A stretch of 25,194 bases of DNA from a virus: positions 1-25,194 of IMG/VR virus record IMGVR_UViG_3300010157_000232. One strand, written 5' to 3'. The notes under the pieces were generated by a model. That model searched no databases. It was given only the letters and a program-made list of their open reading frames with translations, and had not been told where the DNA came from. The translations under genes and the position numbers were made by a program. Below are positions 1,662 through 25,194 of the stretch, piece after piece (position 1 is the first letter of the stretch; every line of letters starts with the position of its first letter).

Positions 1662-4600
1662 TTAGTCTGGCACATATGTACCCAATAAATTGACTACTGT
1701 ATTTGCATATAATCCCTGAGCATACAGTTGCACATTTCCGCTACCTATATTACTAGTAAGAGTAACCAAATCTGAACCGTATGTAGATAAACTACCGTAT
1801 ACTGTTATAATACTATTTATGCTGTCGTGTACCAGAAGCACTTCCAAGGCTTGGTATCCATAATCACTTCCTGCTTTAATTGTGTATTTGGCGGACCTAT
1901 ATGTTGCTAAGGGAAATTGATCGACTATAACGGTACCTATGCCCACAGAAACTGGAGGCCGCGAACTGTATAAATCCCCTACGGCTACGTTTGCAGCACT
2001 AACCGTATTAGTAGCTGTAATATTCCCACTAGCAGTAATATTAGCATTTGATGCGATATTACCGTTTGCAGACAGCGTATTGTTTATTGTAACAGTTCCG
2101 GAAGCTGATCCTAGTTCGACATTAGCTGATAATCCAATATTGATATTGGCTATGCCTCCTACATTGAAGAGTCCGGCGGTGCTACCTGAAACGAAAATAG
2201 TTGAAGTCCCTACTGTTACGCACCCTGAAGAAGCTACCAAATAGTTTGCAGTGATTATGTTGGCATTTGAAATATTACTATTAACATCTAGCAAAATCCC
2301 AGCCGGGGTCGTTAGATTTCCGGTAGTATCAAATACCCATTTGTTAGTTCCACTGGACCAAATGTTAACATTCCCGTTAGCAGTAGGAATACTGACGTTT
2401 GAGTTGCCATTGACGATATCGGTAATACCAGTTAATGATGAACCATTTCCAACAAATCCTGTAGCCGTGATATATCCGTTTGCTAGGTTAGCAGAAAAAT
2501 TAGCATTTGATTGAAGTGGGTAGTTACCTGTTGCTGTTGCAGAAATAAATGGTATGTATCCAGTGCCGGTTGTAGTTAAAGTAGTTGATACGTTAGTAGC
2601 ATTTGAAGCGGTTGTCGCATTTGCTGCAAATAAGTTAGCAACGGTGGTTGTTGAAGTGACAATAAACGGGGCGGTACCTGTTGCGATATTTGAGATTAAT
2701 TGCGGAGCAGTTACGTTGGCACTTGCCAATACCTGTGCAGTACCCAAATTACCAATATTAGCATTACCCACAATGTTTGCATAACCTGCAGTATTTGTTC
2801 CGCCATTTGCAATAGTCAACTGAGATGTGGCATTACCTGTAATAAAATGAGTGATATTAGCATTTGCAGTAATAGTAATATTGCTATTACCGTTCTGCAT
2901 TAATCCACTATTAATAGTAGTAATATTTCCAGTTGTAATAATCGCCGTAGCAGTACCCAAATTGCCAACGTTAGCATTACCTGTAGCATTCAATGTACCT
3001 GATACGTTTACGCCAGTACCTGTAATAATCATCGTATTATTACCAGCAGCAAAATGATTAATATTGCCACCTGATATTGGAATACTTACATTTGAAGTAC
3101 CATTAGATACATTACCAGAATATGCTGAATAGTTTGCGTTTGCTACAGTGCCGCTTACATTGGGTCCATAAATGTTACTTAATAGATTACCTGCACCACT
3201 AAAGTAGTTAGCAATTACTAAGTTACCTAAGTTAGCATTATCTGCTGAAATGTTGCCAGTGCCGCTATTATTAATTGCTAAACCAATACCAGTAGCATTA
3301 CCAATATTTGGTAATATTAATGTTGGACTTGTTTGACGAATAAATGTGCCACTACCCGAACCAGTATATTCAGTTGTAGTTAAGTGAAAATATTGCTCTG
3401 CTGCGCCGCCTTGTAATCCTGCTAAGTTATCGTGAAGTGTTACTAATGGAGTTTGAACAGTTGAACTTGTTGTGGTACCGTTCAATGTAACGCTTACATT
3501 CTTAGTCTGTGAACCACCGTTGATACTAGCAATGACTGTTGCAAGACCAATAGTAGTATTTGCTAATGCGGTTGCACCCTGAGTGGTAGTAAAGTTATAT
3601 GCCGTTAATGTTGCTGTGAGCGTTGCTGCACCAACATAGAACGCATTATCTAACACATTTATAGATACAGCACTCTCGTTTACATAACCACTAGTGGTTG
3701 TAACTGTTGCCGATGTGCTATTTGCGATAGCAGTAATTTGCATTAGTGCGTTTGGTGTTTGTAAGTAGCTCGCTAAACTTACATTTGAACTTGCGGTTGC
3801 AGTTGCGAATGGAGTGCTACCTGTTGCTGTAGCAGTTCTGCTTGTGCCGGTACCGGTAATTGTAATTGTGCCAGCATATGGTGTAGTAATATACTGAGAA
3901 ACTGCAATGCTAGGTGCACCGCCGCTGGTCGCGTTAGCGTTAGACCAAATACTATATGCCCATTGACCAGCATCTAATTGTGTTCTATTCAATGATCCGG
4001 TTTCAAATACAGCAAATACTTCTGACACGCCGCTTGGTATAACACCAGATACGTAACTTACAGCAGTTGTATTAGGGGTACCTAGTAATGTTTGAATATT
4101 AGCAAAGTTGTTTGTAGTTGGACCTGCTAAAATTTGCGGGCTAGTGAACCAAAAGTTAACTGACGCACCTGCACTTACTGTTGAACTTTGATTTTGGTTG
4201 ACCCAGTTAACACCGTTGTACCCAAGAACCTGACTTAATGATGGACTTGTGATAACAACATCTGACAAACTTGAGGTTAGTAACAATCCGGTGATACCAA
4301 CACCGTTACCAGTAATGTAATTTGCTTGTACTAAGTTACCGCCATTAATGTTACCTGCTGTGATGTTAGTACTAATATTAGCATAATTTGCATTGATTAT
4401 ATTTGCACCGTTAATATTAGAACTTGTACCGCTGAGATTAATATCCCCGTTACCGTTAAGAGTAATGCTACCTGCAAAGAAATTGCCTGTAATATTAGCA
4501 TTACCAGTTGCGTTTAAGTTGCCAGTAATATTTGCGTTACCAGCAGTTAAAAGTTGTGTAACAACAATATTACCTGCACCGACATTGCCAATATTAGCAT

Positions 4601-5084
4601 TGCCACTAATGTTTGCTGTACCCGTAATATTTGCACCAGTACCTGTAACCTGTAATACATTGGCTACTCCGGCTACTTTTACATTAAAATTACCACTTGG
4701 ATCTAATGAAGCGTTGCTTGTGCCATTTACAATATAAGAACCTGCTGCTATAGCAATGTTAGTGATATTGCTACCGTCACCTATTAGGTATTGTGCTTTA
4801 ACAACCCCTGAGTTAGCATATAAATTACCTGTTATAGTATTTGTTGTTACGTTTGCATTACCGGTAACAGTAATGCTAGCAAATTGTATATTAGCACTGT
4901 CAGTGAAATCTACATTTCCACCTGATAATATGATATTATTAGAATAAAGGGTACCACTAATCGTTGCATTGCTAGATGCCGAAATAAAATTAGCTGTAAC
5001 ATTGCCGTTTGCATCAATTACATTGATGATTGTATTGGCACCTACGCTAAACCCAGCGACTGAATTAAGCGGTTTATTTGCCAT
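1662..5084 (-). CDS. Giant repetitive tail-fibre protein with C-terminal beta domain
   Basis: The product has 1140 residues. Its ATG overlaps the stop of the upstream fibre gene by one base (TAATG), with AGGACT upstream, so translation is probably coupled. The N-terminus MANKPLNSVAGFSVG carries the anchor motif shared with neighbouring fibres. Residues about 30-290 are NANIxGN repeats. Residues about 290-590 form a different Thr/Ser/Ala-rich segment ending in LAGLQGGAAEQYFHL and TGTFIRQTSPTL-like sequence, a module widespread in phage tail fibres. NANI repeats return after that. The last ~100 residues (VDQFPLATYRSAKYTI ... YQALEVLLVHD) match a terminal domain common in fibres of T4-like marine phages. 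No enzymatic motif is seen. The role as a tail fibre is inferred from architecture and context; the receptor is unknown. Confidence 0.87.
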   Translation of the reverse strand: MANKPLNSVAGFSVGANTIINVIDANGNVTANFISASSNATISGTLYSNNIILSGGNVDFTDSANIQFASITVTGNANVTTNTITGNLYANSGVVKAQYLIGDGSNITNIAIAAGSYIVNGTSNASLDPSGNFNVKVAGVANVLQVTGTGANITGTANISGNANIGNVGAGNIVVTQLLTAGNANITGNLNATGNANITGNFFAGSITLNGNGDINLSGTSSNINGANIINANYANISTNITAGNINGGNLVQANYITGNGVGITGLLLTSSLSDVVITSPSLSQVLGYNGVNWVNQNQSSTVSAGASVNFWFTSPQILAGPTTNNFANIQTLLGTPNTTAVSYVSGVIPSGVSEVFAVFETGSLNRTQLDAGQWAYSIWSNANATSGGAPSIAVSQYITTPYAGTITITGTGTSRTATATGSTPFATATASSNVSLASYLQTPNALMQITAIANSTSATVTTTSGYVNESAVSINVLDNAFYVGAATLTATLTAYNFTTTQGATALANTTIGLATVIASINGGSQTKNVSVTLNGTTTSSTVQTPLVTLHDNLAGLQGGAAEQYFHLTTTEYTGSGSGTFIRQTSPTLILPNIGNATGIGLAINNSGTGNISADNANLGNLVIANYFSGAGNLLSNIYGPNVSGTVANANYSAYSGNVSNGTSNVSIPISGGNINHFAAGNNTMIITGTGVNVSGTLNATGNANVGNLGTATAIITTGNITTINSGLMQNGNSNITITANANITHFITGNATSQLTIANGGTNTAGYANIVGNANIGNLGTAQVLASANVTAPQLISNIATGTAPFIVTSTTTVANLFAANATTASNATNVSTTLTTTGTGYIPFISATATGNYPLQSNANFSANLANGYITATGFVGNGSSLTGITDIVNGNSNVSIPTANGNVNIWSSGTNKWVFDTTGNLTTPAGILLDVNSNISNANIITANYLVASSGCVTVGTSTIFVSGSTAGLFNVGGIANINIGLSANVELGSASGTVTINNTLSANGNIASNANITASGNITATNTVSAANVAVGDLYSSRPPVSVGIGTVIVDQFPLATYRSAKYTIKAGSDYGYQALEVLLVHDSINSIITVYGSLSTYGSDLVTLTSNIGSGNVQLYAQGLYANTVVNLLGTYVPD

Positions 5085-8000
5085 TAAATAGTCCTAAATT
5101 GCGTCGTCCAAACGGTTGCATTAGTACTTACCGGAGATACTTGCAGAGCAATATTTGCACCAACTAAATTTACTGACAATGAGCCTGGACTTGCACCAAT
5201 AAATGTTGTTCCATAAATTACAAAGTCAGCGATAGTTCCATCAGTTAAGGCCTGTACTGTTGCTGCTGAGTATTTAGCGCCGGCAGCATCTACGCCTTTA
5301 ACAAAAAATTCTACACCAGTAACGCCCGAAACAGGAAGCTGTGCAATAGTTTGATTGGCAGTAATGGACACTGTAGTTGTAGTTGCCCAATTAATCGATG
5401 TGTTGCCAAGTGTGATTACATTATCAATATTTGCATTATTAGCTGAGAGAGTACCTGATATGTTTGCATAACCTGTGATATTTGCACCGGTGCTAGTAAT
5501 TACGGCAGTAGTGTTGCCCCCTGACACAAGATTGATATTGCCATTAACAACGGGAATACTTACGTTTGATGTGCCATTACTAATTTGTGATGCGCTGACC
5601 GAATACCAACTTAAGTTACCTAAACCATCAGTTTGTAGTACTTGCCCAGAACTACCACCAGTGATATGTACGTTAGTATTTGATCCTAATGATACATTTG
5701 GTGAACTAGTAAACGTTACGTTACCGTTAGCTGTAAGAGCATAATTCGATGTGATATTATTAGCAACTAAATTACCAGCAATATTTGCGTTTCCGCCATT
5801 ATTAATAGCTAAACTATTGCCATATATACCATTAGCAGTTACATTACCCGTAATATTTGCATTGCCGCCAATTAGTGCGTCAAGCGTGATATTTGCAACA
5901 TTAGCAAAAATATAATTAACACCATTAATGTTACCACCACTACCTGTACCAACTAGTACATTACCAGAAATATTTGCATTACCACCAACCAATAATTCAG
6001 TGCCAACGTTAGCATAACCAGTTGAGATGAAATTGTTTACATTAGCAAATGTGTTGACTGTTAAACTATCAGTTAGCGTTAGTGCATTTGAATTTACGTT
6101 ACCAGCAAGTAAGTTACCCGTCAAGTTTAATGATGTACCGGTTGCTGCGCCAATATTTGGTGTTACTAATTGTGCGCTATTTGCTACCACAATATTACCG
6201 CCAATAATAGCAGTTGTTACATTATCTACATTAGCAGAAATTACCGTACCGGTAACCAAAATACCATTTGCACCAGTATACGCTATTGCCGAACCAAATT
6301 GTGTAAAGACAATATTAGTTACACCAATATCAATTTGACCTGTTGTTGTTAATACCCAACTTGAGCCACCATACGACATACCGCCAGAGATAAAGAAGTA
6401 CGCACCAGAACATAATGCAGTTGTACTTTGTGGAACAAATGTATCACCATCACTGCTTCTTGTAAGTACCCAAGGTGTTGAAATATCACCTTCTGTTGTT
6501 ACACTATAGATACCATTATATGCTTGTGTTGCTTGACCGATTACAAGTACTCTTGAGCCAACAGTTGTTGTAACACCGTCAGCCGCAAATGCTGCATTAG
6601 TACCAGCATTGGTTAAGGTTGCCCCAATACCTGATTGTGCAATTGCAGGTTCTGTTAAACCTGACCCTGCTATTAATGTTTCAACAATTGGTCCAAAGAA
6701 TGTAGATTTTACTGTTATTTGATTTGATGCAGGAATCGTGTCTACCCAATATACAACAGGTGCTGCACTAAGCCCATTAAATGCATTTGTAAATGAAATG
6801 TCAGCGTTTGCACTTAATCCGTGTGCTGTACTAAATTGAATTGTACTGTTACCAATAATATCTGTAACTGTTAGTGTTGTGCCACCATCCGTATATGTTG
6901 CGTTTAGATTAGCAGTAGTTAATACATTTGCTGCTGCGTGGATATATAAACCCTGACCTACGCTGTCAACATATTGTTTTGTTGCTGCATCTTGCGGATT
7001 TAATGGATCACGCACGCTTGTTATGTATGTGTGATTGACATCAACATTGCCTGCACCACCTGGCACTAAGTTAATGTTATAACTACCGTTAGCAAGTTGA
7101 TCACTTGCCAATGTTAAATATGTACCAACCGAAGTTAATGTGTTACCAATAAAGTTGACATTTGATGTAACATTGCCACTAGTAATTGTATTACCAGTAA
7201 CAATAACATTAGTACTTGATACTTTAATTACATTAGCGGTGCCACCAACTGAAACATCAATGTTACCATTAATTGTTGGGATAGCAATGTTGCTTGTACC
7301 GTTAGCAAATATACCTGTGATGTTACCAACAGTTAAGTTGCCGGTTATATTTGCGTTACTTTGAACAACTAAGTTACCTGCAATGTTTGCATCATAATTT
7401 GCATAGAAGTAGTTTGCTGTTGAAGTACCTTGAACATAAGTGTTATTATTAACATTCAAATCAAATGCTAAGTTTGCATAGTTAGCAAATAGATAGTCAA
7501 CACCACTGATATTACCACCAGAACCGCCACCTGTTTGAATATTGCCACCAACATTTAAGTTACCGGTAGTATCATCATAAGTGAATGATGCATTGCTAAC
7601 CAAATAATTAGCTGCATTTCCGTATACAATTTGAGTATTTGATATGGCATTTACTTGAGCATAGTTAACAGAGAGAATATTAGCGGTTGCTAAATTACCT
7701 AAGTTAGCATTACCAGTAGTTAAATTACTTGCGAAGTTTGCATAATTAGCAATTACTAAGTTACCTAAATTTGCGGTGCCAATTGCAGGGAATACTGAGT
7801 TGCCAGTTGGATCAAATGTCCAAATATAATTTCCTGTATCTGCGGCTGTTTGTATATGACCGCCTGTATTATCGGCATATACATAACTTTGATTATCAGG
7901 GCTACCAATTGCAGCTCCGTTAGGCGCAGTGCCACCTAATGTAATGTAACCACCGTTGTCATAGAGTTGACCGCTATCAGGGAATGTTAAATTGCCTGTG

Positions 8001-12219: not shown

Positions 12220-12582
12220 ATGCTTACAAAACAACCTCACAGACCATTTTGCATTAATTGCAAGACTACCTTAGCCAAAGCTAATGGTATAAGTAAGCAT
12301 GGATTTAAGAAATGGCACAAGTATTGCACCGAATGTGCTAAAACACTGTATAATCCTGCATTCAAATATCTACAGCATAAGAGAAGCCGTTGTGATACTT
12401 GCGGATTTGTAGCCGCAGATAAATGTCAATTAGACATTGTGTATAAAGACAATAATAAGGATAATAAATCGATATCTAATATAAAAACCGTGTGTGCTAA
12501 CTGTAATCGATTGCGTAAAAAGCAGTTAAAACAAAAAACTATATTAGATATTACCGTAGACGCTGATGTTACTATTGGGTAG
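12220..12582 (+). CDS. Zinc-finger, degenerate HNH-like protein
   Basis: This is the only convincing plus-strand gene (120 aa). Four CxxC pairs are visible: C11/C14, C36/C39, C58/C61 and C92/C95. The segment from C58 to L98 follows the layout of an HNH nuclease: a CxxCG knuckle, then QLDIVYKDNNKDN where the family usually has QLDVDHIDGNxxNN, then NIKTVCANCNRL where it has NLQTLCANCHRL. The usual catalytic His is replaced (Y75), and so is the His after the last CxxC (N96). The protein therefore may bind DNA or RNA without cutting, or use other residues. Similar small proteins occur in T4-like cyanophages and are often annotated HNH endonucleases. Its 3' end overlaps the convergent 81-aa gene by 11 bp. 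No Shine-Dalgarno precedes the start. Confidence 0.75.
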   Translation: MLTKQPHRPFCINCKTTLAKANGISKHGFKKWHKYCTECAKTLYNPAFKYLQHKRSRCDTCGFVAADKCQLDIVYKDNNKDNKSISNIKTVCANCNRLRKKQLKQKTILDITVDADVTIG

Positions 12583-12817
12583 CAGTTTCATTGATGATTG
12601 CAGTAGAAGTCTCTTTGTCAATAGTTAGGTAGCCGTAGCAGCAAATATTGTAGTCATCCGAACTATCACCAGATGATTCACTGTATGAAGGGACATTCAT
12701 TTTTACATTCTTAAAGATGTATTCTTTATCATTTTCAAACACTCTCCAAACATGGTTTTTCGAACCTCGATTTGGTTGACCGCGACTTTTGTTGAATCTA
12801 ATTAGATATTTGTTCAT
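12572..12817 (-). CDS. Conserved small protein of unknown function, 81 aa
   Basis: The ATG overlaps the stop of the oxygenase gene (ATGA), so the two are translationally coupled. The sequence has a basic N-terminal part (RFNKSRGQPNRGSKNHVWRV), a central FKNVKMNVPSYSESSG stretch, and an end rich in charged/polar residues (YGYLTIDKETSTAIINET). From memory of the family, this pattern (RGxxxRGSxxHVWRVFE ... IDKETSTAII) recurs as a conserved hypothetical protein in T4-like cyanophages. No catalytic motif, signal peptide or membrane segment is visible. Its coupling to the oxygenase suggests a joint role, but none can be named. Confidence 0.75.
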   Translation of the reverse strand: MNKYLIRFNKSRGQPNRGSKNHVWRVFENDKEYIFKNVKMNVPSYSESSGDSSDDYNICCYGYLTIDKETSTAIINETATQ

Positions 12818-13494
12818 ACTGTTGTTGCACTATTATCTACTGCTACTGATTGTAATTTATGAATAAGCCCAATATTAAAGTGTATAAACTTCGATGGTGA
12901 ATCAGCGCCATTTTTAGTAAAGGCATGCGGCAACCAAGAATTGGCAAATAGCATCATGCCGGGTTCTGGTTTGAAATTGACAGCGATACTTGCCGTAGTT
13001 GCTCTACTCATATCTCGCTCTATAATATTGGCATATTTTTTAGCAGGTCTAGGATCGTGAAATACCGGAATAGAACCATTTTTAGGGCATTCTAAGAAAT
13101 AGAATCCAGATATTTGATTACCCAATCCATGTATATGCTCGTCTTGTCCTGAGTGTTTTTCATGTTCTTGACACCACAACTCATTCATTATTGTAGCAAT
13201 AGAATCCATATTATAGCCTTGATGATTTAAAATTCCCCAAGCCTTGTCTAAAATGAATTTATTAAAGTCTGCCAGTCTAGGATCATTCATGAAATTATCT
13301 GACATATAGACAGGATAAATCTCATTTAGTGCTACTTGTTTTTTTACTTTAGCAAGATATTCGTCTGCCACGGCACAGACTGTTTCTAAAAATTCTGCGT
13401 TCTGTATTTGATAAATTGCCGAAGTAAAATAATGAAATTCTTGCAATTGCGGTTCGGTTGATGCTGCCGGCTCATCGCCGATTATTTCTGCCAT
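12814..13494 (-). CDS. 2OG-Fe(II) oxygenase-like protein
   Basis: The product has 226 residues and resembles the putative 2OG-Fe(II) oxygenases common in T4-like marine phages. Candidate iron ligands are H120 and H122 in DEHIHGLGNQISGFYFLECP and the distal H190 in ANSWLPHAF; VFHDPRP (145-150) and the closing FIHFNIG strand fit the family. The jelly-roll core would span about residues 100-210. The start at 13494 has AAAGGAC upstream. The gene overlaps the following 81-aa gene by four bases. Family members are thought to hydroxylate proteins or small molecules using 2-oxoglutarate; the phage substrate is unknown. Its position among fibre genes suggests a structural protein or host surface component as a possible target, which is inference only. 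Confidence 0.8.
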   Translation of the reverse strand: MAEIIGDEPAASTEPQLQEFHYFTSAIYQIQNAEFLETVCAVADEYLAKVKKQVALNEIYPVYMSDNFMNDPRLADFNKFILDKAWGILNHQGYNMDSIATIMNELWCQEHEKHSGQDEHIHGLGNQISGFYFLECPKNGSIPVFHDPRPAKKYANIIERDMSRATTASIAVNFKPEPGMMLFANSWLPHAFTKNGADSPSKFIHFNIGLIHKLQSVAVDNSATTV

Positions 13495-18946: not shown

Positions 18947-19744
18947 TTATATTGTATTTAGTAGTTTACAATTATTACCGTGCCAACGCTTGTGCATTCC
19001 AACACTTACGGTTTTTCCGCAATGTTGGCAAGTTACTTTTTGCTGTGATGGGTGTCTACCTTCTGCCAATCGCTTTAGATTAGCATCTGCGCCCAAAAAA
19101 TTATGTGTACCTTCTTTGACTCTTTTGTTATTCAAGTCGGAACCCAAAAAGTTATGCTTGCCTTCTGCTACTAACTTCTTATTCAATTTACCTTGATAGT
19201 TAGGACTCTTACCATTTTGCCAATGATGTGTACCCTTCTCGGCATTTACAGTTGATGGGTTATTTGTAATGGAGTTGTGTGTTCCTCGTTCATATGCAAG
19301 CTTAGCGTTTCTACCGTCTAAGTTAGGGTGATTAGTTACCCAAGGATGTGAACCAAAAGAAAATGCTTCTATTTGCCTGTCACTTGCGTTTTTTCTTGCC
19401 CCTGCATCTTTTCTCATATAATGATTATCACCTGCTATCTTTGCTGCTACTTTAGGATTAAGCATGGGATTGTTTTTTCCAGGGCTGAATCCAACAGGAT
19501 TAATATTTTGGTTCATGCAGTTAGGCTTTCCGTAATGTTCAGTTAGGTATTCGCCTTCTCGTTGTTTCAATGTCTCAAAGTCATCTACAAACTCTAATAT
19601 TTCACGGGTCAATGTTTCTTTGTTTTTAATCTGAGAAACCCATTTACCTGAACCAACATACCCGTCATCTAAGTTTTCTGTGCTATGCCTACCTATGTAG
19701 TACTTGCCATTAGTGTGAGTGGTTTTGTAAATAAAGTGTTTCAT
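18947..19744 (-). CDS. GIY-YIG homing-type endonuclease
   Basis: From the ATG at 19744 the product has 265 residues. Residues 4-20 (FIYKTTHTNGKYYIGRH) are the GIY-YIG core with the conserved Tyr pair and Arg. A catalytic-region Glu candidate lies in KQREGEYL. The middle and C-terminal part carries repeated GxHNFLG/GTHHW units typical of the DNA-binding NUMOD3 motif, followed by a zinc finger (CQHCGKTVSVGMHKRWH...C). This layout matches phage homing endonucleases such as the T4 Seg proteins. The frame also opens at an ATG at 19771, but that ATG lies inside a TATAAATG promoter-like octamer, and a GATAAATA octamer ends 5 nt before 19744, so the later start is preferred. It is free-standing, placed between the gp23 terminator and the fibre genes. 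Confidence 0.85.
   Translation of the reverse strand: MKHFIYKTTHTNGKYYIGRHSTENLDDGYVGSGKWVSQIKNKETLTREILEFVDDFETLKQREGEYLTEHYGKPNCMNQNINPVGFSPGKNNPMLNPKVAAKIAGDNHYMRKDAGARKNASDRQIEAFSFGSHPWVTNHPNLDGRNAKLAYERGTHNSITNNPSTVNAEKGTHHWQNGKSPNYQGKLNKKLVAEGKHNFLGSDLNNKRVKEGTHNFLGADANLKRLAEGRHPSQQKVTCQHCGKTVSVGMHKRWHGNNCKLLNTI
18955..18962 (-). promoter_or_regulatory. Possible late promoter (ACTAAATA)
   Basis: ACTAAATA on the minus strand keeps the TAAATA core but differs in the first two bases. It lies 22 nt before the ATG at 18932, the same spacing as the octamer before the 1585-aa fibre, and overlaps the last codons of the endonuclease gene. Confidence 0.35.
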
Positions 19745-19749
19745 ACAGT

Positions 19750-19757
19750 TATTTATC
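19750..19757 (-). promoter_or_regulatory. Late promoter octamer GATAAATA before the endonuclease
   Basis: GATAAATA on the minus strand ends 5 nt before the ATG at 19744. No Shine-Dalgarno lies between. The same 5-nt spacing occurs before the 74-aa gene at 24296. Confidence 0.55.
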
Positions 19758-19768
19758 ATAGTCTGCTG

Positions 19769-19776
19769 CATTTATA
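19769..19776 (-). promoter_or_regulatory. Second late promoter-like octamer TATAAATG
   Basis: TATAAATG matches the T4 late consensus at seven of eight bases. It lies 24 nt before the preferred endonuclease start and covers the alternative ATG at 19771. Confidence 0.35.
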
Positions 19777-19786
19777 AATTTTAGTT

Positions 19787-19813
19787 AAAAGAAAAGGGAC
19801 CGAAGTCCCCTTT
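19787..19813 (-). terminator. Rho-independent terminator after gp23 (UUCG tetraloop)
   Basis: The minus strand forms AAAGGGGAC-TTCG-GTCCCTTTT, a nine-pair stem with one G-T wobble, capped by the very stable UUCG loop. It is followed by CTTTT. It sits about 40 bp after the gp23 stop and upstream of the endonuclease promoters. Confidence 0.9.
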
Positions 19814-19838
19814 CTCTGTTCCAACATTTGATTTCTCA

Positions 19839-19857
19839 AATGAGAATGATTCTCATT
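19839..19857. promoter_or_regulatory. Perfect 9-1-9 palindrome resembling a Fur box
   Basis: AATGAGAATGATTCTCATT is a perfect inverted repeat around its central base. Its inner 15 bases match TGATAATnATTATCA at 12 of the 14 specified positions. It overlaps the stop codon of gp23. As RNA it could instead form a seven-pair hairpin with a five-base loop. Function is uncertain. Confidence 0.3.
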
Positions 19858-21049
19858 GAAAAGTCAAATTTTGCACGGCTATTTCACCAACGTAATCCGC
19901 GGCATTCCCGAAACTGCTAGCGGTGTTAGTAAGCTCAATGTAGCCATATCTCGTCATGAACGAAACGACTGGCTCGAATGTCGACGGATCTAATACAACG
20001 CCGCTGCTCATTAATGGAATATATGGGCAGTAGAACGCGGCTGCGTCAGTCTCAGATGAACCCTTGTAACCAACCAATACAGGCTGGGTGTCAGGTGAAT
20101 ATGAGTTAACGAATACGCGCATTGCACCGTTTAAAGTACCAACAAACTTAGTGTTAGTTGGGGCTTCAAATGTGCCTTCTGTTGTACGAGCAAATGCCGA
20201 AGTTGTTGCAGACTGAAGAACAGTCAACGAAGCAGGTGAAACAACTGCCCAGTTGCCAGCACCACGACGAGTGCGCTGTGCAATCAAGTTAGCAACGCGA
20301 TTGATAAGAACAGCAAGAGCAGCGTGTTCGTCACCAACGTATGTAGCAGTACCTGATACTGTAGCTTGGTTAAATGTATACTCGGTTGTTGCCAATGTTG
20401 ACAAGCTGAGTAAGATTTCCTGATCGATTTCAGCAGTGATTTCTTGAGCAAGAGCAGCCATAATTTCTGCTTCTACATCGATACCGTGCTGTGACTGTGC
20501 ATCCTGTGCAGCTTCAAAAGTCCAACGAGCTTGGAGCTTGCGTGACTTGGCTTCAACAGCCTGACGAAGGATCTGTACAGAAATCTGCTTACCACCGTTA
20601 CCTTCTAGAGTTGCTGTATCAGCACCTGTGTAGAAGTTAGTCGATGTTGTGCCTGACTGTACACGCGAGTATGCCTGTGCAATCAAGAATGGGCTAAGGG
20701 CTTCTTGACCAGCTTGTACACTTGTTTGTGCTGCTGAGTTATCAGTCAATGACTGAGCATAGCGTACACGTAAAGTGTGAATCTGACCAACAGGTCCTGT
20801 CATTGGCTGAACGCCAACCAATTCATTTGCAATAACAGTTGGCATTACACGACGAATTACTGGAAGAATAACGCGATTTAATGTTGCGATATTACCAGCA
20901 GTTGTTGTGCCAGCTGACGATTCAGCGAGCAACTGCTTGCGGGTGTTTTCTAAGATTACACCCATTGTTGAACGACGATTTCCCTTCAAGCCTTCTAACA
21001 GGGCCTCTCTGGTCTCGTCCCAACGGCTTTCTAAGAGTACTTTTGACAT
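19853..21049 (-). CDS. gp23: Major capsid protein gp23
   Basis: The product has 398 residues and carries unmistakable gp23 signatures: NRVILPVIRRVMPTVIANEL, VGVQPMTGPVGQIHTLRVRY, ARWTFEAAQDAQSQHGID, EAEIMAALAQEITAEID and, near the end, SFMTRYGYIELTNTASSFGN. It forms the HK97-fold capsomers of the prohead. The T4 protein has 521 residues, so this is a compact version. The N-terminal ~43 residues look like the delta region removed by gp21; sites fitting (L/I)xE before a small residue are LLE-G at 17-20 and LAE-S at 41-44. The start is supported by TTAGGAGAAATTAAAAATG. It follows gp22 by 28 bp and is closed by a strong terminator. Confidence 0.97.
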   Translation of the reverse strand: MSKVLLESRWDETREALLEGLKGNRRSTMGVILENTRKQLLAESSAGTTTAGNIATLNRVILPVIRRVMPTVIANELVGVQPMTGPVGQIHTLRVRYAQSLTDNSAAQTSVQAGQEALSPFLIAQAYSRVQSGTTSTNFYTGADTATLEGNGGKQISVQILRQAVEAKSRKLQARWTFEAAQDAQSQHGIDVEAEIMAALAQEITAEIDQEILLSLSTLATTEYTFNQATVSGTATYVGDEHAALAVLINRVANLIAQRTRRGAGNWAVVSPASLTVLQSATTSAFARTTEGTFEAPTNTKFVGTLNGAMRVFVNSYSPDTQPVLVGYKGSSETDAAAFYCPYIPLMSSGVVLDPSTFEPVVSFMTRYGYIELTNTASSFGNAADYVGEIAVQNLTFQ

Positions 21050-21077
21050 TTTTAATTTCTCCTAATCTATGTCTAAA

Positions 21078-22178
21078 TTAAAGCCCTGCCAGGCGTCTAA
21101 TGTCGATTACGTTATCACGATCTTCAACATCTACATCTGTCTTGGCAGTTTTGTTACCAGTAACTTCTCTTACACTTTCATTAATTGCAACTTTTTTAGT
21201 AGTTGATTTTTCTGAGCCTGTATTAAGTACTGCTGGTAAATACTTGTCGAATGCGGCCTGCAACTTAGTTGTCTGCACGCTTTCTAGCAAGGATTGCATT
21301 ACTTGAGCCTTTTCTTTGTTTAAAGTTTTGAGCAAATCGCTCATAACTTGTCCACGCTGATTTGATTCTTTAATAATACGAACCTCACGATCCTTTGATT
21401 CTACTAACTTGGTAGCTTCCGCTGCCTTGCTTGTAGCTTCAGCTAATTGCTGATCTTTTTGTTCTAGTGCTGATAAAAGCTTGCGAGTTTCTGCATTCTT
21501 ATCTAAGTAAGTTACAGAGTATTCACTTGCAAAAGCTTCAAACAGTCTACGACCAAAATTGTTTTCTTTAGCTGATTTGATATCTTCTTTGAGTTGTGAA
21601 ATTTCACCCTTAAGATGAGATGTGACTGCTGTATTGATTCTCTTTGCGCTCTCACTAACAAATTTGTTCTTGAGTGCATTAAGTTGAATTTGGCCTTCAG
21701 CAACCAACTTAACTTTGGTCTCGACAACTGCTTTCTTGTCTTGCGAGAATTCTTTAATTTCTTTAGCAAGGGCATGAACAACAAATTGCTCAAGCTTCTT
21801 TTGATTCTCTAGTGCGATCTGACGATCTGCGCGTAATTCTTTAATTTCTTCGGCTAATTTTGTAACCATAAAATTATTGAACTTTGCTGCATTTTCTCTG
21901 AGTTTCATCTTTGCTTGTACGCGATCTTCGTTAAGAGCCTTCTTTTCTTCATGAAATTCTTCAATTTCACTACGGAGGCTTTCGGTTACCATCTTATCTA
22001 GGGCTTCTACCATCACAATTCTATCGTGTTCATAGCGTTGTGCAAACTCTTCGCGGAGTTCAGACCGCACTTGATCACGGGCTTCTGTCAACTTGGACTC
22101 CCAAACTTTGTTAAGTTCTTGTCCAACATCTTCGTTGATTAAGCCACTGTCGAGCAATGGTTTGATAGCATCTAGCAT
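21078..22178 (-). CDS. gp22: Prohead scaffold protein gp22
   Basis: The product has 366 residues, longer than the usual T4 length (about 270). It is highly charged and mostly coiled coil (residues about 20-330; for example EEIKELRADRQIALENQKKL). A conserved FGRRLFEAFASEYSVTYLDK segment at about 210-230 supports gp22, as does the place between gp21 and gp23. It builds the inner core around which gp23 assembles and is then degraded by gp21. Several LxE sites fit that cleavage. The basic C-terminus ends NVIDIRRLAGL. AGAGGAAC precedes the ATG, 11 bp after the gp21 stop, indicating one operon. Confidence 0.92.
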   Translation of the reverse strand: MLDAIKPLLDSGLINEDVGQELNKVWESKLTEARDQVRSELREEFAQRYEHDRIVMVEALDKMVTESLRSEIEEFHEEKKALNEDRVQAKMKLRENAAKFNNFMVTKLAEEIKELRADRQIALENQKKLEQFVVHALAKEIKEFSQDKKAVVETKVKLVAEGQIQLNALKNKFVSESAKRINTAVTSHLKGEISQLKEDIKSAKENNFGRRLFEAFASEYSVTYLDKNAETRKLLSALEQKDQQLAEATSKAAEATKLVESKDREVRIIKESNQRGQVMSDLLKTLNKEKAQVMQSLLESVQTTKLQAAFDKYLPAVLNTGSEKSTTKKVAINESVREVTGNKTAKTDVDVEDRDNVIDIRRLAGL

Positions 22179-22189
22179 ATCTAGTTCCT

Positions 22190-22825
22190 CTATTTAATTT
22201 TTAATTCCTTGATAAGACGAGTTACCTCATCCTTCAAGTATTTCTGTACCTTTCTGTCGCCGCTAACTTCCTTAGCAACTTCTAGTATTTTATGACCGTG
22301 CTTCATGTTCATGAGGCCTTCATAAATTGCTTTTGGGTATGCGTTTGGTGCGCTTGGCTGCGCGACAATATCAACAGTGATTATTTCAAAATCACTTACA
22401 CGGCCATCCCTGTCGTCTACGTTACCGCTACCACGACTGGATACGCCAAGTTTAACACCACTCTCCAACATTGTTTTTACTAATTGACCCATTGGAGTTG
22501 GTAGAATTTTTAATTTTCCGAAACCGTTTGGCCCGTCCATCCACATATTAGTAATCATATGTGATACACGGTCCAAGTTAATCTTTAAATCATCTGGATG
22601 GTCTACTTCACCTAATACTGAATGACCTTCTGTGATTTGCTCGTTTAATGTTTTTACGGCATTTTCAATTTCAGTGACGGGGTAAACACGCTCGTTTGCG
22701 TTCTTTACCCCACCCTGAATGAAGATACCCTTCATATATAGGTTCTTCTGATCACCTTGAGTTACGCTTTCGACCTGCATTTCTGCACGGTCGAAAGATA
22801 ACTGTTCCTTGAGATACAAAGCCAT
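22190..22825 (-). CDS. gp21: Prohead core protease gp21
   Basis: The product has 211 residues, matching the T4 gp21 protease. Family landmarks are NANERVYP (43-49), the catalytic His in LGEVDHPD (H76) and the nucleophilic Ser in KLGVSSRGSG (S129 or S130). An Asp near 152 in ITVDIVAQPSAP may complete the active site. The C-terminal ~40 residues are a basic helix that is probably removed on activation. It cleaves the core proteins and the gp23 N-terminus during head maturation. AAGGAACTGAGAAC supports the start; the upstream acidic core gene ends only 14 bp away. Confidence 0.95.
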   Translation of the reverse strand: MALYLKEQLSFDRAEMQVESVTQGDQKNLYMKGIFIQGGVKNANERVYPVTEIENAVKTLNEQITEGHSVLGEVDHPDDLKINLDRVSHMITNMWMDGPNGFGKLKILPTPMGQLVKTMLESGVKLGVSSRGSGNVDDRDGRVSDFEIITVDIVAQPSAPNAYPKAIYEGLMNMKHGHKILEVAKEVSGDRKVQKYLKDEVTRLIKELKIK

Positions 22826-22839
22826 TTGTTCTCAGTTCC

Positions 22840-23703
22840 TTACTTAGCTACTGGGCTTCTTTTGCCAGTTGCTCCATCTTTGGTGACAGGCTTAGGAGTT
22901 GAATCTCCCTTTTCTGTGAAGTTATTCTTGCCTGGAGTGTTCTTGAACTTGCCTGCTCCCGGTAGATCGCCTTCACCCTTTGCACCGTAGTTGCTTGGAC
23001 TCTTAGGACCAGTTGGTACTGCTTCAGCATCACCAGAGAATTTTACTGGCTTACTTGCCATACCGCGCTGTCCTGAATTAGCAGCATATGTGCTTTTGCT
23101 CTGTGAGCCATTGTCACCGTGCTTTGGGGCTGGCACGCGAGGTAGATTGATATTTTCCATTACAGATTCTTCTTCTTCCTCTTCTTCATCGTCCATGTCC
23201 TCTTCATCGTCCATGTCCTCTTCATCATCTTCTTCGTCATGGTCTTTTTCCATGTCGTGAGTCATATCATGACCGGCTTCTTCAGCTTCGTCATCAAACT
23301 CTGCATCTTCTTCATCATGTTCTTTGTGTTCGTCGCCCATGATTTCTTCAAATTCTGCCATAAGCTCGTCTAATTTATCTTCAATACGAACTACGCGATC
23401 TTCGATTTCTTCGTGTTCAGACGCTTCATCATGACCCAAATCTGCATCTTCGGTCATGCCTGATTCTTCAGCATTAATTTCATCAAGTAGATCACCTACT
23501 TGTCCGCCCATGCCTTCGTCCATGTCATCTTCCATCATATCTTCGTCCATATCTTCTTCCATGCCCATCATTTCTTCGTCCATGATGTTTTCATAGATTT
23601 GGCGTGACTTTTCTACAACGATTTCGTGAAATAATTCGCTTGCTCTTTCTTCATTTTCATTAATGATTAAATCAATAAGTTGCTCAAATTTTTTATTGTC
23701 CAT
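22840..23703 (-). CDS. Acidic prohead core protein (gp67/gp68 position)
   Basis: From the ATG at 23703 the product has 287 residues. That start has AGGAGAACAAC upstream and is preferred over an in-frame ATG at 23739 without a Shine-Dalgarno. The N-terminal ~45 residues form a helix (FEQLIDLIINENEERASELF). Residues about 45-190 are extremely acidic with Met (EEDMDEDMMEDDMDEG, then runs of Glu and Asp) and include a short coiled coil (IEDRVVRIEDKLDELM). The last ~95 residues switch to a Gly/Pro/Lys/Asn-rich basic tail (TGPKSPSNYGAKGEGDLPGA). T4 places the core proteins gp67 and gp68 here, and similar acidic-then-basic proteins occur in cyanophages. A scaffold role is inferred from position and composition, not from sequence homology to T4. 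Confidence 0.75.
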   Translation of the reverse strand: MDNKKFEQLIDLIINENEERASELFHEIVVEKSRQIYENIMDEEMMGMEEDMDEDMMEDDMDEGMGGQVGDLLDEINAEESGMTEDADLGHDEASEHEEIEDRVVRIEDKLDELMAEFEEIMGDEHKEHDEEDAEFDDEAEEAGHDMTHDMEKDHDEEDDEEDMDDEEDMDDEEEEEEESVMENINLPRVPAPKHGDNGSQSKSTYAANSGQRGMASKPVKFSGDAEAVPTGPKSPSNYGAKGEGDLPGAGKFKNTPGKNNFTEKGDSTPKPVTKDGATGKRSPVAK

Positions 23704-23809
23704 TGTTGTTCTCCTGATTGAAATGGCTTTGTGTATCATTACTTATGCGTATATTAAAAAAACCGTCTAATAACGATGTATTTTTTGCGTTTTTGAGCAA
23801 GATATAAAG

Positions 23810-23833
23810 AAAAAGGGGCATTTGCCCCTTTTT
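23810..23833 (-). terminator. Rho-independent terminator, probably bidirectional
   Basis: AAAAAGGGGC and GCCCCTTTTT form a perfect ten-pair stem around a four-base loop, with a T run on either strand. It lies in the 155-bp gap between the 35-aa membrane peptide and the acidic core gene. No convincing late promoter octamer was seen in this gap. Confidence 0.85.
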
Positions 23834-23858
23834 ATACCAGCATCATTATTCAGCAATG

Positions 23859-23966
23859 TTATTTGCTGATCTTACTCTTAATCCAAGCGCCAATCTTAGG
23901 TACTAAAACTACTAATACTGCGCCAGCTACGGCTCCTGTTAAAAAGTCAACTGTTAGTCCAAACAT
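23859..23966 (-). CDS. Small single-pass membrane protein, 35 aa
   Basis: The frame runs MFGLTVDFLTGAVAGAVLVV with LVPKIGAWIKSKISK following, then TAA. CAAGGAGAATCTAC gives an excellent Shine-Dalgarno at proper spacing. Residues 3-23 are a hydrophobic Gly/Ala/Val helix, and the end is basic and amphipathic, so a short membrane peptide with a cytoplasmic positive tail is likely. It lies between the 74-aa gene and a terminator, in the head operon. The 105 bp upstream (23967-24071) hold only an imperfect hairpin at about 23986-24006. A role in membrane-associated prohead initiation is conceivable, but nothing in the sequence proves it. Confidence 0.75.
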   Translation of the reverse strand: MFGLTVDFLTGAVAGAVLVVLVPKIGAWIKSKISK

Positions 23967-24071
23967 GTAGATTCTCCTTGTTATAACACTACGGATTGCC
24001 GAAGTGCTAATAATATTTACTAGGACTAAGCCTTTATAAAGTACATAGTGAATTATTTTGAGATTGTTAGA

Positions 24072-24296
24072 CTAAACAGTGGGACCAGCAGCAGCTTTAG
24101 CACCGTATTGATCACGAACTTTAGTTAGATAGGTTTTCTTCTCATAATTCCTAACATCTAACATGCGTCTTAGTTTGCGAATTTGTCTTAACGTAAGTTT
24201 AGTTTTTCTAGATGTACGCCATACAGGTTTACTGTTGTCAGAATTGACATCTTGAAATCCAGCTACTGGTGGGTCAAACATTTCTATAAGGTTCAT
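24072..24296 (-). CDS. Conserved basic head-module protein, 74 aa
   Basis: The N-terminal third (MNLIEMFDPPVAGFQDVNSD) is followed by a strongly basic segment (KPVWRTSRKTKLTLRQIRKL then RRMLDVRNYEKKTY). Proteins of this pattern are, from memory, conserved next to gp20 in T4-like cyanophages and have no assigned function. Its place after gp20 is where T4 has the core protein gp67, but it is basic rather than acidic, so equivalence is doubtful. The start lies 15 bp after the gp20 stop and only 5 nt after a GATAAATA octamer, without a Shine-Dalgarno. Confidence 0.8.
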   Translation of the reverse strand: MNLIEMFDPPVAGFQDVNSDNSKPVWRTSRKTKLTLRQIRKLRRMLDVRNYEKKTYLTKVRDQYGAKAAAGPTV

Positions 24297-24301
24297 ATAA
24301 T

Positions 24302-24309
24302 TATTTATC
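24302..24309 (-). promoter_or_regulatory. Late promoter octamer GATAAATA after gp20
   Basis: GATAAATA on the minus strand lies between the gp20 stop (24312-24314) and the ATG at 24296, ending 5 nt before that ATG. It would start a separate late transcript for the core and capsid genes. Confidence 0.55.
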
Positions 24310-24311
24310 TG

Positions 24312-25194
24312 TTATCCAACTGATCCGGGCGTAGCTATACCACTAGCCGCCGCTGCACCTTGTGCACCTGCTGCTGCCCCTGCCATATTAGGTGGTGCAG
24401 TGCTTACAGGGCCTACAATGCTTTCTGGACTTGCTCCTTCTTCAGACGGGGCTTCCATTTGGTCTGCTGTGTCTTGATCTGCTTGCATATCCCCAATCGA
24501 AACTCCAATACTTCTAAGATCGCTGCCTTTGGGTCTATCAAGCTCATCTTTTTGATTCTCTTCACGCCACAATTTTTCATTCTTAGCGATTTCTTCTTCG
24601 CTTAAACCCAAGAATCTTTCCATTGCAAAACGCTTAGAAATATAGGGGAATTGATCCATTGTTTGGTATACACTAACTCTATCTTTGTCTAATTCACTTT
24701 GTCTATACGATGCAAAGTTTTGTGGTGGATTAAATGTAAGTTGAAATAACCCAGAATCAATATTAAAGCCTCTCCAACGTAAGAATAATTTAAACTCTTC
24801 ATCTAATTTAAGAGACATGTAATTCTGCAACCGCTCACAATATTGATTAAATCTAAACTCTTGTATCATTGCGGTGCCAACTCTACCGTCATTCATTGGA
24901 GTACTATTGTCGTCTGGGCCAGTTGGCAAATATGAACTTGGAACCCGCAAACCTCTAGCCAATCTGTTGTTAAAGTACTTTAAGTCATCAATTTCACCAA
25001 GATTTTGACCGCCAGGCAATAATTCAACACTGCTACCCTTACCTTCTGAGGTAACAGGGAAGAAGTAATCTTCGTTCATTGAGTTTTTGACAAATATACC
25101 TGAATCAATTGCAAATGTATGATAATCGTGCCAGCGGTGTAATCCATCTATAGTAATAGTACCAGTATCACGATTATCTACCTTTTCAATCTTC
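24312..25194 (-). CDS. gp20: Portal protein gp20, C-terminal part, interrupted by an intein
   Basis: The gene continues beyond the right edge; 293 codons are visible. From the Ser at 25080-25082 onward the protein is portal: MNEDYFFPVTSEGKGSSVEL, then LLPGGQNLGEIDDLKYFNNR, RVPSSYLPTG and, later, RFNQYCERLQNYMSLKLDEE. T4 gp20 has a closely similar EDFWLPRREGGRGTEITTLP and LPGGQNLGEMEDVEYF. The portal is the dodecameric ring at the capsid vertex through which DNA is packaged. The C-terminal ~50 residues are Ala/Gly/Pro-rich. The 37 codons before the Ser do not resemble gp20 and fit an intein end (entered separately). A Met begins the recognisable portal part, but no Shine-Dalgarno precedes it and the frame is open upstream, so it is not taken as a start. 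Confidence 0.92.
   Translation of the reverse strand, partial: KIEKVDNRDTGTITIDGLHRWHDYHTFAIDSGIFVKNSMNEDYFFPVTSEGKGSSVELLPGGQNLGEIDDLKYFNNRLARGLRVPSSYLPTGPDDNSTPMNDGRVGTAMIQEFRFNQYCERLQNYMSLKLDEEFKLFLRWRGFNIDSGLFQLTFNPPQNFASYRQSELDKDRVSVYQTMDQFPYISKRFAMERFLGLSEEEIAKNEKLWREENQKDELDRPKGSDLRSIGVSIGDMQADQDTADQMEAPSEEGASPESIVGPVSTAPPNMAGAAAGAQGAAAASGIATPGSVG
25083..25193 (-). mobile_element. C-terminal splicing segment of an intein in gp20
   Basis: The first 37 visible codons read KIEKVDNRDTGTITIDG, then LHRWHDYHTFAIDSGIFVKN, followed by Ser. Intein block F is seen in HDYHTFAID, and block G in SGIFVKN with the terminal Asn directly before a +1 Ser nucleophile. The penultimate residue is Lys instead of the usual His. 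The junction falls exactly at a conserved portal motif (just before MNEDYFFP). The rest of the intein, and whether it is contiguous with a homing nuclease or split, lies outside the window. Confidence 0.8.

Follow-up and report, generated by a model that had tools for sequence, protein, structure and literature searches.

The T4-type portal gene gp20 at the edge of the analysed DNA, the 25,194-nucleotide virus record IMGVR_UViG_3300010157_000232 of IMG/VR (here referred to as the window), very probably carries an intein of class 1 type that is contiguous and contains an HNH-type homing endonuclease. It is located between the equivalents of T4 Met328 and Ser329, and most likely splices out of the protein and homes into empty gp20 alleles. 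What is unusual about the single element is its place, the intein as such being ordinary, and the interest lies in its family, in the crowding of that family in the clip domain and in the several inteins found in single genes. As a marker gene, gp20 is in common use for T4-type phages; its product initiates head assembly and forms the ring through which DNA enters the head. A mobile element required to leave every portal subunit, where motor and DNA touch the ring, ties intein activity to virion assembly. Moreover, intein-bearing genes may be broken up or given a wrong size by gene callers and gp20 surveys that count on some 600 aa for a portal. The family is compact, with many alleles, empty sites and mini-, double and triple inteins, which makes it a good natural system for homing and also suits the study of splicing without a penultimate His.

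In the window, a minus-strand frame enters at 25193 with 37 codons (KIEKVDNRDTGTITIDGLHRWHDYHTFAIDSGIFVKN), followed by Ser (SMNEDYFFP) and by portal sequence up to the stop at 24312 (Table 1). As the virus record has 25,194 bases, the window end is the contig end, and the remainder of the 420-aa intein lies beyond it. The Portal_T4 match (PF07230, E 7.8e-46) covers residues 38–212 of the frame, starting straight after the Asn, and together with the T4 head gene order it identifies the protein as a T4-type portal. Among named phages, jumbo phages have the nearest portals, for example Agrobacterium phage Atu_ph07, at 53.7% over 76% of the query, and Pseudomonas phage PA5oct, at 52.3% over 75% of it. 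The 37-aa segment searched alone had no match in Pfam at E up to 1 or in NCBIfam at E up to 10, so the window by itself is insufficient as proof of an intein. The initial annotation, made from the window's letters, had proposed that an intein interrupts gp20 and had recommended a search with intein profiles; the short segment gave no match in such a search, but full proteins (L004, L005 and L040) do match intein models, and the proposal is borne out by two contigs that continue the sequence.

Table 1. Features located in the window, with strand and supporting match.
Feature	Position	Strand	Evidence
Intein C-terminal 37 residues (block F and block G, end ...GIFVKN)	25083..25193	-	identical to the last residues of the 420-aa intein, L004:22-1281
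Ser codon, C-extein +1, equivalent to T4 gp20 Ser329	25080..25082	-	T4 position from aligned relatives
C-terminal extein, T4-type portal gp20, stop codon included	24312..25082	-	PF07230 E 7.8e-46; phrog_213 portal
Small ORF straight after gp20, place of T4 gene 67	24072..24296	-	position only
Prohead core protease, gp21-like	22190..22825	-	PF03420 E 4e-28; phrog_207
Major capsid protein gp23	19853..21049	-	PF07068 E 5.6e-98; phrog_138
Homing-endonuclease-like ORF directly downstream of gp23	18947-19771	-	phrog_314 E 1.8e-23; weak GIY-YIG, Pfam E 0.1
2OG-Fe(II) oxygenase-like gene	12814-13494	-	phrog_81 E 4e-16
Small ORF amid minus-strand genes, weak HNH/zinc-binding matches	12220-12582	+	HNH E 0.02, below cut-off
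Four very long Asn/Gly/Thr-rich repetitive ORFs, 548+ (open), 1140, 1585 and 748 aa	3-12128	-	

The first of these contigs, L004, was found by scanning IMG/VR with the window frame and is identical to it over all 293 residues; its DNA agrees with window positions 19739-25194 at 99.835% over 5456 nt, gap-free, and extends 1,169 nt further. The second, L086, came from a later scan and matches the window at 99.935% over 6,112 nt, also gap-free, and the two contigs show 6 differences in 6,625 positions. The L004 frame reads DASYNPL, then an insert of 420 aa (CLDLETKIPLLDGRTL...TPDHKIP...VIHHNDYDRFNNDPRNLVYM...HTFAIDSGIFVKN), then SMNEDYFFP, all as a single open frame; junctions and length of the insert are the same in L086. 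The parts of the element are Cys1, a TPDH block B, an HNH-like endonuclease, block F and a terminal Asn followed by Ser+1. It had been conceded at the outset that the upstream sequence might align continuously with gp20 and lack Hint similarity; it is Hint-like and not portal. The extension thus recovered the region of blocks A and B and the endonuclease, but just 7 residues of the left extein, because both contigs begin there. The two have different IMG metagenome ids, yet their first base is the same one, 21 nt ahead of the intein, which suggests perhaps an assembly branch near the insertion site. Among the relatives, L005-L010, L040 and L041 each encode both exteins and the whole intein in one open frame, which measures 982-1043 codons from stop to stop.

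In an alignment of 42 related inteins, picked by hand among the best 80 of 190 relatives, Cys1, T74-P75-x-H77 of block B (T74 P75 D76 H77 in L004), His161-His162, His408 and Asn420 are invariant. The class 1 nucleophile, Cys1, lies outside the window and is present in L004, L086 and all 42 aligned inteins; the terminal Asn followed by Ser, likewise expected of class 1, is found within the window itself. The penultimate residue of the window's intein is Lys instead of His. In the available text of PMC5050341, this His is described as highly conserved but no absolute requirement, as a phage intein that has Gly at this place splices; an upstream block-F His can take over its role, and phage inteins are inconsistent in keeping it. 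The initial annotation called the Lys atypical, which is true of inteins generally, but in the gp20 family it is the rule (Lys in 115 and His in 2 of the 152 inteins delimited below).

Profile matches were of unequal strength. Intein_splicing (PF14890) is above the cut-off in L005 (E 5e-9) and L040 (9.2e-10) and below it in L004 (1.1e-6), and intein_Nterm (TIGR01445) exceeds its own cut-off in all three proteins. In the same three, an HNH_3 match lies mid-element, between the intein-model matches and weaker than these; it is above the cut-off in L040, L120 and L126 and below it in L005, L143, L153 and L004, where it is weak (17.4 against 24.8 bits). No HNH_3 match was listed for L139 and L157 at the thresholds used, nor any LAGLIDADG family for L004, L005 and L040 in Pfam at E up to 0.1. 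The AlphaFold model, computed with the 42-intein alignment, has a pLDDT of 87.1 (93-98 in the Hint parts) and a pTM of 0.71. Its best PDB match is the NrdJ-1 intein 8ubs (Z 22.1, rmsd 1.5, 142 aligned), followed by the DnaB, RecA and DnaE inteins. The 420-aa element is thus predicted to have the Hint fold, and its residues agree with class 1. The absent penultimate His and the matches of PF14890 and HNH_3 below the cut-off in L004 count against our explanation.

With these parts, the portal would be translated as a single precursor (about 1,020 aa in relatives), from which Cys1, Ser+1 and the terminal Asn420 would excise the intein in cis by the class 1 route, rejoining the exteins exactly. 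Lys419 stands at the penultimate place, and the invariant block-F His408 probably does the work of the usual His. In mixed infection, the HNH endonuclease would cut empty gp20 alleles, and repair would copy the intein in.

Empty alleles are plentiful among related portals. With the window frame as query, an insert was present in 10 of the best 80 relatives, and the other 70 have an uninterrupted YNPLSMNEDYFFP or a close variant. As this query contained intein residues, the scan was redone with the portal part alone, whose best 80 relatives comprise 7 with an intein and 73, including the nearest, with the insert-free site YNPL-SMNEDYFFP (small variants allowed). Both scans show the best 80 of at least about 600 candidates and include several near-copy loci, so that 70/80 and 73/80 are not population frequencies. 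The site is empty in L165-L167, the three closest other portals among the best 80 (84-86% identity). Matches beginning at query residue 28 were considered as possible divergent inteins and rejected, as they are empty sites. The insertion is therefore in frame with uninterrupted homologues at the same site; the gp20 alignment that had been recommended for defining the empty site did so, and the segment is not ordinary portal sequence, being lacking in uninterrupted portals.

By alignment of relatives sharing the junction, the insertion falls between Met328 and Ser329 of T4 gp20 (L163). According to the available part of PMC4493910, the clip domain of T4 gp20, where the packaging ATPase and the neck attach, comprises residues 279-358, and the channel loop residues 350-359. 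Since the site is inside the clip domain, an unspliced 420-aa insert should not permit a working portal ring.

We further collected the gp20 inteins as a family by scans with the intein alignments A1, A3 and A4 (best 80 each of 190, 366 and 365 relatives). Our intein N-terminal profile was matched in the ORF of 225 of the 292 loci tested, and all 225 of these ORFs also match the portal profile; the loci lacking an N-profile match number 67, the same as the empty portals among the loci tested. The 225 overlapping loci correspond to 142 distinct ORFs, of which 133 were fully delimited; nine were dropped for contig-end cuts or for want of a clear start or end, and four of the nine have two or three N-profile matches. 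The 133 ORFs hold 152 delimited inteins, one in 117 ORFs, two in 13 and three in 3, which makes 16 genes with multiple inteins (L139/L140, L266/L271 and L357/L358 being near-copies). Expressed as T4-equivalent +1 positions, they are located at 317 (13 inteins), 320 (5), 329 (85), 331 (1), 340 (3), 342 (3), 354 (37), 355 (3) and 358 (2), nine positions all within the 42 residues T4 317-358, in the clip domain and channel loop. All 152 were found starting from one intein family, and hence the crowding is a trait of this family and not of all portal inteins. The +1 residue is S in 133 and T in 19, a count partly given by construction, as Asn plus S/T/C was used for delimiting. Ten of the 152 are shorter than 200 aa. 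In L139:4513-8508, and likewise in L140, three related inteins of 156, 254 and 346 aa occupy one portal ORF, in which the stretches of portal sequence between them measure just 11 and 25 residues.

A tree of 126 distinct splicing domains, with few columns and many open forks, requires 16 site changes, against a minimum possible of 8 and a mean of 51.6 after shuffling (as low in 0 of 200), so the inteins mostly stay allelic and seldom reach a new site. In the bacterial and archaeal genome collection, the patterns used selected 62 stretches and 0 relatives. The searches of named phages with three gp20 inteins gave 9, 13 and 7 records, all at <60% identity, and the records other than LR756508.1 and SP-15 are known by annotation only. 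Going beyond these counts, and based on all 225 classified loci, each in gp20, one could speculate that one HNH-type intein family has a dedicated hotspot in T4-type portals, namely their clip domain and channel loop (nine positions in 42 residues, up to three inteins per gene), that head initiation would then need up to three splicing events per subunit, and that splicing may slow or time the assembly of the portal ring; we regard this as rather improbable.

Comparison of inteins with their portal flanks points to lateral transfer in the relatives. In L112/L113, the intein is 99.9% identical over 1,260 nt, against 70.5% for the portal DNA on the left (900 nt) and 74.7% on the right (700 nt); in L129/L131, the intein is 99.8% identical and the flanks 75.1% and 77.1%. 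Both pairs were selected because they rank at the top when pairs are listed by intein identity minus portal identity, and among the eight pairs profiled, four others have a smaller intein excess and two none (L087/L009 and L087/L098). Judged from these alignments, near-identical inteins in diverged portal DNA indicate transfer, which would be an indirect sign that the predicted HNH endonuclease cuts empty alleles. Intein identity correlates with portal identity (Spearman 0.80 over 496 pairs among 32 inteins), so joint descent is common and transfer episodic, much of the divergence being shared descent. The window's copy shows no recent transfer; its nearest inteins besides that of L086 are 77% identical (among the best 80 of 190). 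The portal tree comprised 80 rows, 30 with an intein and 50 with an empty site, after removal of other site types, duplicates and short rows, and several of its rows are long-branched; on it the intein state changes at least 12 times, and well supported branches force six of these changes. From the five of nine pairs with usable dS, which share members and are not independent, omega comes to about 0.05 for the splicing part and to 0.10-0.24 for the endonuclease part; both parts look maintained, under purifying selection.

Could the element be a splicing-dead remnant or plain insertion, the portal keeping a Hint domain as an extra domain? The missing penultimate His and the partial loss of endonuclease parts in some relatives (L125, 387 aa; L136, 315 aa) would fit, but 420 extra residues per subunit in the clip domain should block motor docking (domain limits from the available part of PMC4493910). 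The remaining splicing residues are conserved, omega is low in the splicing part and the penultimate Lys is widespread in the family, all of which makes this reading unlikely. A split intein, with the window holding the gene half for a short C-fragment and the N-half elsewhere in the genome, is more doubtful still. It had been thought possible because the segment, at 37 residues, has the length usual for a split C-fragment; many known phage inteins are split. However, a further 383 in-frame intein residues are joined to the segment in L004 and L086, one continuous ORF in both, and relatives have both exteins contiguous in one portal ORF, so that the intein is contiguous unless these contigs are chimeric. 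A group I intron or free-standing HNH gene within gp20 is barely credible: HNH endonucleases often reside in introns, which can also occur in structural genes of phages (PMC3706429), but the insert is in frame, stop-free and Hint-like at both ends, and no Rfam family reached the gathering score in the window, L004, L009 or L139. A check for structured RNAs and tRNAs likewise found none.

As to known systems, no report of an intein in T4-type gp20 was found in the open-licence literature searched, partly in excerpt, which makes the absence weak. Portal inteins (PORT) have been reported for cluster C1 mycobacteriophages, likewise in a phage portal gene, but in phages different from the T4-type carriers (PMC5050341, available text). 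The initial view that the portal is a departure from the usual intein genes therefore holds for T4-type phages as searched, but not for phages at large. Cluster J mycobacteriophage terminase inteins resemble the present case in being HNH-type, in a packaging gene and with an intein-less close relative, but their host gene is not the portal (PMC3706429, available text). In one clade of gut huge phages, portal genes are fragmented and/or divergent, and introns and putative inteins interrupt genes (PMC12363816, available text). The NrdJ-1 intein, the best structural and sequence match in the PDB (27% identity over 142 aligned), shares the Hint fold; its host gene is another one (ribonucleotide reductase, by name), and 8ubs, a 150-residue split-intein fusion, has no endonuclease of the size seen here.

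Two further records contain relatives of the gp20 intein. The uncultured huge phage LR756508.1 (L084, 484 kb) has a T4-type portal ORF with three inteins, whose sites are equivalent to T4 252, 265 and 394 and not 329; the third is related and of HNH type, with 33.6% identity across 63% of the query, but the other two are mini-inteins of 150 and 141 aa with the penultimate His. In this record, which lacks annotation, a LAGLIDADG-intein gene (167-1945) precedes the portal gene (2030-6190). SP15_022 of Bacillus phage SP-15, annotated as hypothetical, contains a distant relative (28-32% identity; 32% over 55% of the query) with a PF14890 match and an HNH-like stretch seen by eye. Unlike the gp20 carriers it has no portal match, so the kinship of gp20 inteins reaches beyond portals. 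In SP-15 (L085, 3674-5293; PF14890 E 9.5e-17), the intein adjoins a GLGKST P-loop-like motif.

In the rest of the window, the neighbours of gp20 fit a T4 head module, these being the gp21-like protease, gp23 and, where gp22 is expected, an ORF whose PHROG function is unknown. The homing-endonuclease-like ORF next to gp23 is a second mobile element in this module. At the other end of the window, the 1585-aa repetitive ORF had no PHROG match at E up to 0.01; all four repetitive ORFs show recurring GNANVGNLGTA-like motifs, and they are possibly fibre or adhesin proteins.
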